From contig SHVJ01000010.1 of NCBI GenBank assembly GCA_009694295.1, positions 1-36,340 on the forward strand: a DNA stretch of 36,340 bases. The letters are read 5' to 3'. How positions within the stretch are numbered: the first letter of the stretch is position 1; each line of letters starts with the position of its first letter. This document shows, one piece after another, positions 2,192 through 26,025 of the stretch. The notes under the pieces were generated by a model. The model did not search any database. It was not told the DNA's origin and worked only from the letters and a program-made list of their open reading frames with translations. Position numbers and translations under genes: made by a program. Source of the stretch: Acidimicrobiia bacterium. Its GTDB lineage: Bacteria > Actinomycetota > Acidimicrobiia > IMCC26256 > PALSA-555.

Positions 2192-2217
2192 GGAATAGCG
2201 AGGCACCGAGCAAAGTT
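2192..2217 (+). promoter_or_regulatory. Candidate SigR/SigH-type ECF promoter GGAAT-N18-GTT upstream of dnaK
   Basis: GGAAT at 2192-2196, GTT at 2215-2217, spacer exactly 18 nt; same layout as at clpB. Confidence 0.6.
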
Positions 2218-2235
2218 GATACCGTCACACTCAAG
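2215..2235. promoter_or_regulatory. HAIR-like HspR operator (GTTGATA-N7-ACTCAAG) upstream of dnaK
   Basis: Right half-site matches the HAIR half-site ACTCAAG exactly; TTGA-N11-TCAA spacing matches CTTGAGT-N7-ACTCAAG. Confidence 0.75.
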
Positions 2236-2292
2236 TTCGCAATCTCCTATTCCGACAACCAACTCTCAGTACCAACTCGTGGAGGAAATCCC

Positions 2293-4131
2293 ATGCCCAG
2301 AGCCGTAGGCATCGACCTCGGTACCACCAACTCGGTCGTTGCGACCCTCGACGCGGGCGAGCCCACCGTGATCCCGAACGCCGAAGGCCAGCGCACCACG
2401 CCATCGGTCGTCGCGTTCTCCAAGACCGGCGAAGTGCTCGTCGGCGAGGTGGCCAAGCGCCAGGCGATCACCAACCCCGACCGCACCGTCCGCTCGGTGA
2501 AGCGCGAGATGGGCACGAGCTGGTCGCTCGACATCGACGGCAAGAAGTACACGCCGCAGGAGATCTCGGCCCGCATCCTCCAGAAGCTCAAGCGGGATGC
2601 GGAGGCGTACCTCGGCGACACTGTCACGCAGGCCGTCGTCACCGTGCCCGCGTACTTCGACGACGCACAGCGTCAGGCCACCCAGGAGGCCGGTCAGATC
2701 GCGGGGCTCGAGGTCTTGCGCATCATCAACGAACCGACTGCGGCCGCGCTCGCATACGGCCTCGACAAGGACACCGACCAGACCATCCTCGTGTTCGACC
2801 TCGGCGGCGGCACCTTCGACGTGTCACTGCTCGACATCGGCGACGGCGTCTTCGAGGTGAAGTCGACGGCCGGGAACACACACCTCGGTGGTGACGACTG
2901 GGACCAGCGCGTCGTCGACTGGATGGTGCAGGAGTTCAAGAACGCGCACGGCGTCGACCTCTCGGTCGACAAGATGGCCGCGCAACGACTGAAGGAAGCG
3001 GCGGAGAAGGCGAAGATCGAGCTCTCGGCCGTGCAAGAGACCACGATCAACCTGCCGTTCATCACCGCAACGCAAGACGGACCCCTGCACCTCGAGCAGA
3101 CGCTCTCGCGCGCCAAGTTTCAAGAGCTGACGGCGGATCTGCTCGAGGCCTGCAAGGGCCCCGTCGAGCAGGCCGTGAAGGACGCGGGCGTCGACAAGTC
3201 GAAGGTGGACCACGTCATCCTCGTGGGCGGTTCCACGCGGATGCCTGCGGTCGTCGACCTCGTTCGGGAGATCATCGGCAAGGACGCACACAAGGGTGTG
3301 AACCCCGACGAGGTGGTTGCGATCGGTGCTGCGATCCAGGCCGGCGTGCTCAAAGGCGACGTCAAGGACGTGCTGCTCCTCGACGTGACGCCGCTGTCGC
3401 TCGGCATCGAGACCAAGGGTCAGATCATGACCAAGCTCATCGAGCGCAACACCACGATCCCGACCAAGCGGTCGGAGGTGTTCACGACCGCGGACGACAA
3501 CCAGTCGAGCGTCGAGATCAAGGTGCTCCAGGGCGAGAGCGACATGGCGTACCGCAACAAGACGCTCGGCACGTTCCAGCTCGTCGGCATCCCGCCGGCT
3601 CAGCGTGGTGTGCCGCAGGTCGAAGTCACGTTCGACATCGACGCCAACGGCATCGTGCACGTCTCGGCGAAGGATCTCGGGACGGGAAAGGAACAGCAGA
3701 TGACGATCACCGGCGGTACCGCGCTCGATCGCGACGAGATCGACCGGATGATGAAGGAAGCCGAGGAGCACGCCGAGGAAGACAAGCAACGCCGCGAGGC
3801 GGTCGAGTTCCGCAACAACGCCGACTCGCTCGTGTACCAGACCGAGAAGCTGCTCAAGGACCAGGCCGACAAGGTCGGGGACGACGACAAGGTGAAGATC
3901 GAGGCCGCGCTCGGCGAGCTCAAGGAAGCGCTCGCGGGCGAGGACGTCGATGCGATACGGGCGAAGCACGAGGCGCTCATTCAGGCGAGCCAGGAGTTCG
4001 CGCAGCGGCTGTACCAGTCGGCCCAGCAGGAGCAGGCGGCCGGCGACGCCGGTGCGAGCGACCCGGCTGCTTCCGACGACGACGTCGCCGACGCCGAGAT
4101 CGTGGACGAGGGCGAAGAGCAGAGCGCGTAA
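2293..4131 (+). CDS. dnaK: Chaperone protein DnaK (Hsp70)
   Basis: [23 protein letters not shown]...[21 protein letters not shown] at 2281. The ORF-track start at 2143 is too far upstream. Confidence 0.98.
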
Positions 4132-4664
4132 TGGGCGACGAAGTCCGCGAGGACATTGACGACGCTGACGTCGAGCAGACGGCCGACGAGGCCGAAGCGA
4201 CTGTGGAGGCGGACCTCGTCGCGCTCGCGGCTGAACGCGACGACTTCCGTGAGCTCGCCCAGCGTGTGCAAGCCGACTTCGAGAACTATCGGAAGCGGAT
4301 GCTGCGCGAGCAGACCGACAAGATGGAGCGGGCCAACGAAGGGCTCGTCGAGCAGCTCCTTTCGGTGCTCGACAGCTTCGAGCTCGCGCTCTCCAACATC
4401 CCGAACGGTGATGGAGACGCGGACGAAAAGGTCCGCAAGGGCGTCGAGCTCGTGTACGCCGAGCTACTCGGTGTGCTTGAGAAGTCCGGGCTCGAGCGAA
4501 TCGATGCGTTTGGGAAGCCGTTCGACCCACACGAGCACGAAGCCGTCGCGCAAGAAGACGGTGACGGTGAGCCGGTGGTCTGCGACATCCTCCGGTCGGG
4601 ATACCGACTGAAGGGCCGCGTGCTGCGTCCGGCCACCGTGAGGGTCACGCGCGCAGGAGCCTGA
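4131..4664 (+). CDS. grpE: Nucleotide exchange factor GrpE
   Basis: RVQADFENYRKRM...AFGKPFDPHEHEAV; TAATG overlap with dnaK. Confidence 0.96.
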   Translation: MGDEVREDIDDADVEQTADEAEATVEADLVALAAERDDFRELAQRVQADFENYRKRMLREQTDKMERANEGLVEQLLSVLDSFELALSNIPNGDGDADEKVRKGVELVYAELLGVLEKSGLERIDAFGKPFDPHEHEAVAQEDGDGEPVVCDILRSGYRLKGRVLRPATVRVTRAGA

Positions 4665-4668
4665 CTGT

Positions 4669-5802
4669 ATGGCGCCGCAACGAGAGTGGTTCGATACCGA
4701 CTACTACCAACTGCTGGGCCTGAGTTCCGACGCGTCCGAGAAAGACATCCAGAAGGCGTACCGCAACCTCGCGAAGCAGTTTCACCCCGACGCGAACCCG
4801 GGCGACGCGTCCGCGGAGGCGCGCTTCAAGGAAATCTCCGCCGCGAACGACGTGCTCGGCGATCCTGAGAAGCGCAAGGAGTACGACGAGGTGCGCGCGA
4901 TGGTCGCGAGCGGTCGCGGCCCGGGCGGCTTCGGTGGCCGCGGCTTCGGAGGCGCCAGCTTCGACTTCGGTGAGGGCGGAGGTCTAGGCGACCTGTTTGG
5001 CGGACTGTTCGGCAACGCCGGCGGACGTCAGCGCGGTGGTCGCCAGCCAAACGCGCCGCAACGCGGTCAAGACCTCGAGACCGAGCTGAAGCTCGACTTC
5101 CTCGACGCCGTGCACGGTGTCGAGACGACGGTCGGGCTCACGTCGGATGCGGCGTGCTCAAAGTGCAACGGCAGCGGCTCAGAGCCCGGCACGCGGCCCG
5201 AGGTCTGCCCTACGTGTCACGGCAGCGGATCGGTCGCGGTCGACCAGGGTCCGTTTTCGTTCTCGCAGGTGTGCTCAACGTGCGGTGGACGCGGTCAGGT
5301 GATCACGAGTCCGTGCAAGAAGTGCCATGGGTCTGGTGTCGAGCGTCGGCGCCGCAACGTGAAGGTGCGCATCCCTGCGGGAGTTCGCGACGCCCAGCGC
5401 ATCCGCGTGAAGGGGCGTGGTGGCGCGGGTCGAAACCGCGGGCCGTCGGGCGATCTGTACGTGATCGTCCACGTGAGCAAGCACCCACTCTTCGGACGCA
5501 AGGGCGCCAAGGACCTCACGCTCGCTGTTCCGGTCACCTTCCCCGAAGCCGCGCTCGGTATGCAGGTGAAGGTCCCCACGCTCGCCGAACCCGTCACCGT
5601 GAAGGTGCCCGCCGGTACGGCGAGCGGCACGACCGTTCGCGTGCGCGGTCGAGGCATCAAGCCCGCCAAGGGCGATGCGGGCGACCTCCTCGTTACGTTC
5701 GAGGTTGTGGTGCCCAAGAAGCTCACAGCCGACCAACGCGCCGCGGCGGAAGCCCTCGCGGAGAAGCTCGACGACAACCCACGCGCGCACCTGGGGGTGT
5801 GA
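4669..5802 (+). CDS. dnaJ: Chaperone protein DnaJ
   Basis: J domain (HPDAN), G/F region, four CxxCxGxG zinc motifs. Confidence 0.97.
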   Translation: MAPQREWFDTDYYQLLGLSSDASEKDIQKAYRNLAKQFHPDANPGDASAEARFKEISAANDVLGDPEKRKEYDEVRAMVASGRGPGGFGGRGFGGASFDFGEGGGLGDLFGGLFGNAGGRQRGGRQPNAPQRGQDLETELKLDFLDAVHGVETTVGLTSDAACSKCNGSGSEPGTRPEVCPTCHGSGSVAVDQGPFSFSQVCSTCGGRGQVITSPCKKCHGSGVERRRRNVKVRIPAGVRDAQRIRVKGRGGAGRNRGPSGDLYVIVHVSKHPLFGRKGAKDLTLAVPVTFPEAALGMQVKVPTLAEPVTVKVPAGTASGTTVRVRGRGIKPAKGDAGDLLVTFEVVVPKKLTADQRAAAEALAEKLDDNPRAHLGV

Positions 5803-5804
5803 CG

Positions 5805-6152
5805 ATGGCCAACGATCCGAGCGAACGCAGCCAGCAAGAACGAGCGCTCTACATCATCTCGGTGGCGGCCGAGCTGGCGGGTGTGCATGCGCAGACGTTG
5901 CGCATCTACGAACGCAAAGGACTCATCGAGCCGGCGCGTACGCAGGGCGGAAGCCGGCGCTACTCCGAACGCGACATCCAGCTCTTGCAGCGGATCCAGG
6001 AGCTCACGAACGAAGGCGTCGGCTTGATGGGAGTGCGCAAGATCCTGGAGCTGGAAGACGATCTCGCAACTGCGTTGGCGCACATCCGAGATCTGGAGGT
6101 GGCGCTCGAGCGGGCGCGCGCCGCCGCGCGTGGAGCCGTCAGCTCGAAGTGA
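5805..6152 (+). CDS. hspR: Heat-shock repressor HspR (MerR family)
   Basis: ALYIISVAAELAGVHAQTLRIYERKGLIEPARTQGGSRRYSERDIQLLQRIQEL; last gene of the dnaK-grpE-dnaJ-hspR order; the track shows it inside the 5154..6152 ORF. Confidence 0.93.
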   Translation: MANDPSERSQQERALYIISVAAELAGVHAQTLRIYERKGLIEPARTQGGSRRYSERDIQLLQRIQELTNEGVGLMGVRKILELEDDLATALAHIRDLEVALERARAAARGAVSSK

Positions 6153-7123: not shown

Positions 7124-7149
7124 GGAATGCGAAAGTTGATGGTTGTGTT
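7124..7149 (+). promoter_or_regulatory. Candidate SigR/SigH-type ECF promoter GGAAT-N18-GTT upstream of clpB
   Basis: GGAAT at 7124-7128, GTT at 7147-7149, 18-nt spacer. Confidence 0.6.
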
Positions 7150-7157
7150 ATCAACTT
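7133..7157. promoter_or_regulatory. HAIR-like HspR operator (AAGTTGAT-N9-ATCAACTT) upstream of clpB
   Basis: Perfect 8-bp inverted repeat with TTGA-N11-TCAA spacing, as at dnaK. Confidence 0.75.
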
Positions 7158-7212
7158 CACCAACCGACCCAACCTCCAACTCAACTTCCAACCCAAGTGA
7201 GGTGCACGGCAC

Positions 7213-9789
7213 ATGGCCCTTGATCCCAACAAGCTGACTCGAAAGACCGCCGAGGTTCTCCAGGCCGCGCAGTCACTCGCGCGCGAACGCAACCACGCCC
7301 AGGTGAGCCCCGAGCATCTGCTCGCGGCCATGGTTGGTCAGCCCGAATCCGTCGTGCTCCCCGTGCTCGAGCGGGTCGGCGTCACCCCATCCGCTGTGCG
7401 GACCCAGGTCGACGAGGCGCTGGCGAAGGTTCCCCAGGTCTATGCCGAGACCGCGCAGCAGGCGCAGCTCTCGCCCGACGCGTTCAAAGTGCTCGAGATC
7501 GCCGACGGTCAACGTACCGATCTCGGCGACGACTATCTCTCGACCGAGCACCTGCTCCTTGCCATGACCGAAGCCGCTGGCGGTGTCGGCGACTTGCTCC
7601 GCGCGCTCGGCGTCACGCACGACGCCGTCCTCGCCGCGCTCAAGGAAGTGCGTGGCAGCCACCGCGTGACCAGCGAGAATCCTGAGGACCAATACCAGGC
7701 GCTCGAAAGGTTCGGCCGCGACCTCACCGAAGAGGCGCGCAAAGGCAAGCTCGACCCGGTCATCGGGCGCGACGACGAGATTCGGCGCGTCATCCAGGTG
7801 CTCTCCCGTCGCACCAAGAACAACCCGGTGCTCATCGGTGAGCCTGGCGTGGGCAAGACCGCGATCGTCGAAGGGCTCGCGCGTCGAATCATTGAAGGCG
7901 ACGTGCCTGAGTCGCTGCGCAACAAGCGACTGATCTCGCTCGACATCGCCAGCATGGTGGCCGGGTCGAAGTATCGCGGTGAGTTCGAAGACCGCATGAA
8001 GGCCGTGCTCAAGGAGATCACCGACGCACAAGGCGAAGTGATCTCGTTCGTCGACGAACTGCACACGATCGTCGGCGCGGGTGGCGCCGAAGGTGCCGTC
8101 GACGCCGGCAACATGATCAAGCCGATGCTCGCCCGCGGTGAGCTGCGCATGATCGGCGCGACGACGCTCGACGAGTTCCGCAAGTACATCGAGAAGGACC
8201 CCGCGCTGGAGCGCCGCTTTCAGCAGGTGTTCGTGGGTGAGCCGTCGGTCGAGGACACGATTGCGATCCTGCGCGGCCTCAAGGAGCGCTACGAGGTGCA
8301 CCACGGTGTGCGCATCCAGGACGCCGCGCTCGTGGCCGCGGCGGTGCTGTCGGACCGCTACATCACTGCGCGCCAACTTCCCGATAAGGCGATCGACCTG
8401 ATTGATGAGTCCGCGTCGCGGTTGCGCATCGAGATCGACTCGATGCCGATCGAGATCGACGTGGTCGAGCGCCGTATCCGTCAGCTCGAGATCGAGAAGG
8501 CCGCGTTGGCCAAGGAGACCGACGACGCGTCGAAGCAGCGCCTCGCCGCGCTGGAGGCCGAGCTCGCTGAGCTGGCTGAGTCGCGCGACGCGATGGTCGC
8601 CCACTGGCAGAACGAGAAGGACGCCATCACCGAGATCCGGGCGCTCAAGGAGCAGCTCGAGCAGGCCCGCAATGAAGCCGAGCGGGCCGAGCGTGAGGGC
8701 GATCTCCAGCGTGCCGCGGAGTTGCGCTACGGCACCATGCGCGACCTCGAGCTCGAGATCGAGGACAAGACCGCCCGCCTCGACGATCTCCAGCGCGAGC
8801 AGAAGATGCTGAAGGAGGAGGTTGACGAGGAGGACGTCGCCGAGATCGTCTCGAAGTGGACCGGCGTCCCCGTGACGCGACTGCTCGAAGGCGAGGTCGC
8901 GAAGCTCATCCGCATGGAAGACGTGCTGCACGGTCGCGTCGTCGGCCAAGACGCGGCGGTCGACGTGGTGGCGAACGCCATCCGTCGCTCACGCGCCGGC
9001 CTGTCGGACGCGAACCGACCGATCGGTTCGTTCCTGTTTCTCGGCCCGACGGGCGTGGGCAAGACCGAGCTCGCACGCAGCCTCGCCGACTTCTTGTTCG
9101 ACGACGAGCGGGCGATGGTCCGCATCGACATGTCGGAGTACCAGGAGAAGCACAACGTGTCGCGCCTCGTCGGCGCGCCTCCGGGGTACGTGGGCTACGA
9201 GGAAGGTGGTCAGCTCACCGAAGCGGTGCGTCGCCGCCCGTACTCGGTGATCCTGCTCGACGAGATCGAGAAGGCCCACTCCGACGTGTTCAACGTGCTG
9301 CTCCAAGTGCTCGACGACGGCCGGCTCACCGACGGGCAGGGCCGTACGGTCGACTTCTCCAACAGCGTGCTGATCATGACGTCGAACCTCGGTGGTGGAT
9401 CAGACGAGAACACGGTGATGAATGTGGTGCGTAACCACTTCAAGCCGGAGTTTCTGAACCGCATCGACGAGATCGTGGTGTTCCACCCGCTCACCCAAGA
9501 GCACATCCGCGAGATCGTGATGTTCCAGGTGGAGCACCTGCGGGCGCGCCTGGCCGAGCGCAACCTCGGCCTGGAGCTCACCGACGCGGCACTCGACCAT
9601 CTTGCGACGGTGGGCTACGACCCCGACTACGGGGCGCGTCCGCTCAAGCGAGTGATCCAAAAGGAGATCGCCGACTCGGTCGCTCTCGGGTTGCTGAAGG
9701 GTGACTACTCCGACGGCGACGTGGTGGTGATCGACGCAGCGAGCGACGGCCAACTCGCGTTCAGCCGCCGCCAAGCCGTCAACGCCTGA
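7213..9789 (+). CDS. clpB: ATP-dependent chaperone ClpB
   Basis: 858 aa, two Walker A motifs ([30 protein letters not shown]), coiled-coil middle domain. Confidence 0.98.
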
Positions 9790-25951: not shown

Positions 25952-26025
25952 GGGCCGCTAGCTCAATCTGGCAGAGCAACGGGCTTTTAACCCGGAGGTT
26001 CAGGGTTCGATTCCCTGGCGGCCCA
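25952..26025 (+). tRNA. tRNA-Lys (TTT)
   Basis: GGGCCGCTAGCTCAATCTGGCAGAGCAACGGGCTTTTAACCCGGAGGTTCAGGGTTCGATTCCCTGGCGGCCCA. Confidence 0.95.

Follow-up and report, generated by a model that had tools for sequence, protein, structure and literature searches.

The window (the whole stretch of 36,340 nucleotides that was analyzed, from a 2.1-Mb draft MAG estimated as 64.5% complete, so that further targets may be missing) carries dnaK, grpE, dnaJ and hspR in that order, then a minus-strand reading frame that matched no family, and finally clpB. The named genes all lie on the plus strand. dnaK (2293..4131) and dnaJ (4669..5802) matched TIGR02350 and TIGR02349 above cutoff, and grpE (4131..4664) matched NCBIfam GrpE models with E values down to 5e-37, below their individual cutoffs. 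The last gene of the dnaK operon, hspR (5805..6152), encodes a MerR-family repressor of 115 aa that scored 112.9 bits against the HspR equivalog model NF047375 (cutoff, 105), and clpB (7213..9789) encodes the disaggregase, 858 aa long (TIGR03346, 1328 bits; cutoff, 1232). The C-terminus of the HspR protein (...RARAAARGAVSSK, encoded at 6110-6149) was not obviously hydrophobic; for mycobacterial HspR, by contrast, the title of a reference listed in PMC8223512 reports a hydrophobic tail that mediates DnaK dependence.

Upstream of clpB on the plus strand, GGAAT (7124-7128) is followed by an 18-nt spacer, GCGAAAGTTGATGGTTGT, and then by GTT (7147-7149), in the manner of the -35 and -10 elements of a SigH/SigR-type promoter. 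The GTT lies between the arms of an inverted repeat, AAGTTGAT-N9-ATCAACTT (7133-7157), and abuts the right arm; the left arm (AAGTTGAT, 7133-7140) and the right arm (ATCAACTT, 7150-7157) are perfectly complementary over 8 bp and stand 9 nt apart, and the repeat stands 55 nt upstream of clpB. The consensus of the HspR operator, or HAIR, is CTTGAGT-N7-ACTCAAG. We predict that the repeat is a HAIR-type operator, on the basis of its exact core (TTGA 7136-7139, N11, TCAA 7151-7154), its retention at clpB in relatives and its context, since the pattern stands upstream of both clpB and dnaK in a genome that encodes HspR. At dnaK, a candidate promoter of the same type (GGAAT 2192-2196, N18, GTT 2215-2217) runs into a predicted operator (AAGTTGATACCGTCACACTCAAGTT, 2213..2237) with its core at TTGA 2216-2219, N11, TCAA 2231-2234. 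Here the left arm itself contains the GTT, and the arms, unlike those at clpB, do not form a perfect 8-bp repeat. Separately, the predicted clpB leader (7157-7196) is C/A rich, with repeated CCAAC and CAACTT words, and the dnaK leader (2250-2275) shows a milder form of the same repetition.

When the sequence was reread, the coordinates that an earlier note had given for clpB, and the overlap of promoter and 8-bp repeat that it described, proved exact. It had also proposed that the two operators overlap their promoters differently, and this was borne out: the predicted clpB HAIR spans the spacer, the -10 element and the likely start, whereas that of dnaK extends from the -10 element onward. Its description of the spacing at the two genes as identical holds within each element; between the elements, the register, which we define as the distance from the start of GGAAT to the start of TTGA, is 12 nt at clpB and 24 nt at dnaK.

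The regulators that this reading needs are encoded in the genome. Besides HspR, contig C18 carries a SigH-family sigma factor gene (TIGR02947, 254.2 bits; cutoff, 251.55), with an RsrA-like match (TIGR03988) no more than about 100 bp downstream of it; at 58.8 bits, this match falls just below the cutoff of 62.5. The RsrA-like gene encodes the zinc motif HLNKCPPC (HxxxCxxC) and has MDC near its N-terminus. In RsrA, the HxxxCxxC motif and N-terminal residues hold zinc and sense thiol stress. Taken together, these features suggest that the segment at 7124-7157 is, very probably, a SigH/SigR-type ECF promoter of clpB with an HspR operator covering its spacer, its -10 element and its probable start.

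The promoter might instead be real but served by a different, SigE-like ECF sigma factor, alone or alongside SigH. Two further, weaker ECF sigma matches occur in the genome, and in Corynebacterium glutamicum both SigH and SigE drive transcription from the P2 promoter of dnaK (PMC10012870). However, the promoters shared by SigH and SigE in that organism have GGAAC (PMC10012870) rather than the GGAAT found here, and the best sigma match in the genome exceeds the SigH cutoff, so that we consider this alternative unlikely.

Relatives were found through HspR, most of them draft genomes whose titles read Acidimicrobiia, Acidimicrobiales or Actinomycetota; the dnaK and clpB upstream regions of HspR-bearing loci were then aligned on the operator. 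The operator was conserved at both genes, its arms constant and its centre variable. In SigH-bearing Acidimicrobiia genomes, GGAAT-N17-19-GTT was present in 18 of 28 clpB upstream regions (0.06 in shuffles) and in 19 of 28 dnaK upstream regions (0.22 in shuffles), while Acidimicrobiia genomes without SigH had it in 1 of 21 dnaK and 0 of 4 clpB upstream regions. Within the genus (four genomes, including that of the window), the linked pair occurred twice in each genome: one copy was at register 24 throughout, and the other was at register 12 in three genomes and at register 13 in the remaining one. The clpB registers among relatives were 11, 12 and 13 with spacers of 17, 18 and 19 nt, respectively, or 23 and 24 with spacers of 17 and 18 nt. 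For dnaK they were 24, -35 in a second clade, where the operator lies upstream of the promoter, and singly 4, 5 and 33. In the spacer variants (N17 in L031, N19 in L022) it was GGAAT that shifted, GTT staying put in the operator. Because register and spacer length vary together, GTT rather than GGAAT appears to be anchored to the operator, as expected if the -10 element and the operator are locked together. Two observations on individual relatives may be recorded here. The eight dnaK loci with the operator 35 nt upstream of GGAAT and no promoter overlap are L072, L075, L081, L084, L085, L087, L089 and L091. One record titled as a Bifidobacterium breve MAG (CAMDCC010000012.1) encodes an HspR and a ClpB N-terminus that share 94% and 86% identity, respectively, with those of the window and has the same register-12 clpB promoter; its title looks wrong.

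Across 58 genomes of the same order, there were 81 linked matches, compared with 8 for a reversed pattern, and they piled up at register 24 (28 of 81) and register 12 (16 of 81), where a uniform distribution would place about 4.5 each. All fetched register-24 loci preceded dnaK except L120, which preceded lon, and those at register 12 preceded clpB except L111, L122 and L135, which lay by neither gene. A further register-24 pair, G067:C399, resembles the lon site of L120 in sequence and is probably likewise upstream of lon. A phylum-wide sample of 297 genomes showed register 24 upstream of dnaK in several families; it also preceded lon at three loci and a ClpB-family gene at one, loci L162 and L164 being confirmed by NCBIfam. 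Register 12 before clpB was found in this sample, which held only three genomes of the order, in the window's genome only. None of the fetched register-12 matches from outside the order adjoined clpB, and they look like chance occurrences. On these alignments and pattern matches, the register is gene specific and conserved, at 12 nt for clpB and 24 nt for dnaK, and, among the genomes sampled, clpB showed the register of 12 in the window's order only. The earlier note had clpB repeating the dnaK arrangement independently. That independence was not established, because the two sites belong to one inherited regulon.

It is also conceivable that the repeat is an HspR operator but that a housekeeping SigA promoter accounts for most clpB transcription, GGAAT and GTT being incidental. 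SigA-type promoters that share the HspR operator are indeed the rule at dnaK loci that lack GGAAT-N17-19-GTT: these loci retain the operator, and 31 of 36 have TANNNT 16 to 18 bp past the TTG hexamer of the left arm (expected, 1.9), so that in these 31 lineages the left arm is predicted to supply the -35 element of a SigA-like dnaK promoter. A weaker effect was seen at clpB loci, 6 of 16 having TANNNT past the right arm (expected, 0.8). However, loci with the SigH-type element had TANNNT at that spacing only at chance level (dnaK, 1 of 19; clpB, 0 of 18), and the GGAAT-N18-GTT of clpB is conserved far above shuffled sequences. In the window, neither clpB nor dnaK has TANNNT 16 to 18 bp after an operator-arm hexamer, the form expected of a SigA promoter that shares the operator. 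We regard a mainly SigA-driven clpB as distinctly improbable. By eye, the dnaK locus L053 appears to carry both kinds of promoter (TTGATA and CATAAT).

The type of promoter agreed with the presence of SigH in 43 of 51 genomes (23 with both SigH and the promoter, 20 with neither, 7 with SigH only and 1 with the promoter only; Fisher P = 3e-7). On a DnaK tree there were three changes of SigH and four of promoter type, and once phylogeny was taken into account, the association between SigH and promoter type was not significant, there being too few independent changes (three pairs). Because SigH changed only three times on the tree, the association is not phylogenetically independent evidence, and that SigH presence tracks promoter type is suggestive only. 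A broader reading, to which we give an even chance, is that the HspR operator of the Actinomycetota is a fixed module on which different promoters are carried: its left arm may serve as a SigH -10 element (register 24), its central-right part may do so at register 12, as at clpB in this order, and in lineages that lack the SigH-type promoter an arm may instead act as a SigA -35 element. The sigma factor would thus be swapped and the repressor kept, and register 12 at clpB would have arisen locally, putting the repressor on top of the promoter spacer.

A repeat with perfect 8-bp arms could pair in RNA and act only as a hairpin in the leader, or it could be bound by another repressor, such as HrcA at CIRCE. 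Against a hairpin, nearly all of the repeat would precede the predicted start and so fall outside the transcript; against another repressor, its TTGA-N11-TCAA core is that of dnaK, whose operon ends in hspR, and we take the repeat not to be the HrcA/CIRCE one. The constancy of the arms while the centre varies among relatives speaks against both, which leaves them very improbable.

In the window, TTGA-N11-TCAA occurs 2 times where 0.09 is expected, and none of 100 shuffles reached 2; GGAAT-N18-GTT occurs 3 times where 0.28 is expected. The third of these matches (25989-26014, minus strand) lies inside a tRNA-Lys gene and is an unrelated chance match, of a kind to watch for as a false positive in motif scans. 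The genome-wide scan suggested by the earlier note, run as a pattern search, found TTGA-N11-TCAA in 9 places (2 for the reversed-pattern control) and GGAAT-N18-GTT in 11 (control, 2). The two overlapped at dnaK and clpB only, far from background frequency: about 0.002 coincidences within 25 bp are expected (9 x 11 x 51 / 2.1 Mb). The other seven TTGA-N11-TCAA sites overlap open frames of at least 150 codons and have no extended arms. A chance meeting of two short motifs, each present about ten times in the genome, is practically eliminated by this restriction and refuted by the order-wide concentration at two registers, in keeping with the earlier note's judgment that chance was unlikely. Other intergenic GGAAT-N18-GTT sites precede lon (L016, G000:C67) and a peroxiredoxin gene (L020, G000:C79) and are likely further SigH targets, which would fit a SigH regulon; the genome pattern search found no TTGA-N11-TCAA at this lon site.

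From these elements, with their conservation and register, and from the sigma, anti-sigma and repressor genes, we infer a two-input logic for an HspR-repressed SigH-type promoter, along with its binding events, start sites and induction. In the absence of stress, HspR would occupy 7133-7157 and keep RNA polymerase off the clpB promoter, probably aided by DnaK. Such assistance of HspR by DnaK is known in Streptomyces and mycobacteria. Both operator placements, at clpB and at dnaK, would block polymerase binding. Heat or thiol-oxidative stress would open two locks at these genes: HspR would let go once unfolded protein had titrated DnaK away, and the RsrA-like anti-sigma factor would release SigH. 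Expression of clpB and of the dnaK-grpE-dnaJ-hspR operon would then rise together, and the increased DnaK and HspR would close the loop.

The best reading is that the clpB promoter and operator belong to a known design, a SigH/SigR promoter repressed by HspR, as at dnaK in Corynebacterium. The dnaK gene of C. glutamicum has a SigA promoter, P1, and a SigH/SigE promoter, P2, with HAIR (PMC3917453, PMC10012870), and so combines a GGAA-type ECF promoter with an HspR operator in one region of the same gene. It differs in its additional P1, where no SigA-like -10 element was found here at the expected operator spacing, and in the GGAAC of its P2, where the window has GGAAT and, at clpB, register 12. 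In Mycobacterium tuberculosis the same two regulators act on dnaK and clpB (PMC2687793, PMC3917460, PMC8223512), the HspR regulon comprising hsp70, clpB and acr2 (PMC2687793) and the SigH regulon including Hsp70 and ClpB (PMC3917460). Streptomyces coelicolor has the same repressor and targets, its HspR regulon being dnaK, clpB and lon (PMC2687793); lon has the SigH-type/HAIR pair in the order relative L120, whereas in the window's genome it has the SigH-type element without the operator core.

A small literature search turned up no account of HspR control in Acidimicrobiia and no description of an order-restricted clpB register or of a sigma swap on a fixed operator. The finding would extend a known two-input heat and oxidative stress switch to a large, mostly uncultured class of actinobacteria, in which the switch is testable with existing cultured relatives, and it offers a clean comparative case of a promoter that changes its sigma factor yet keeps its repressor site.
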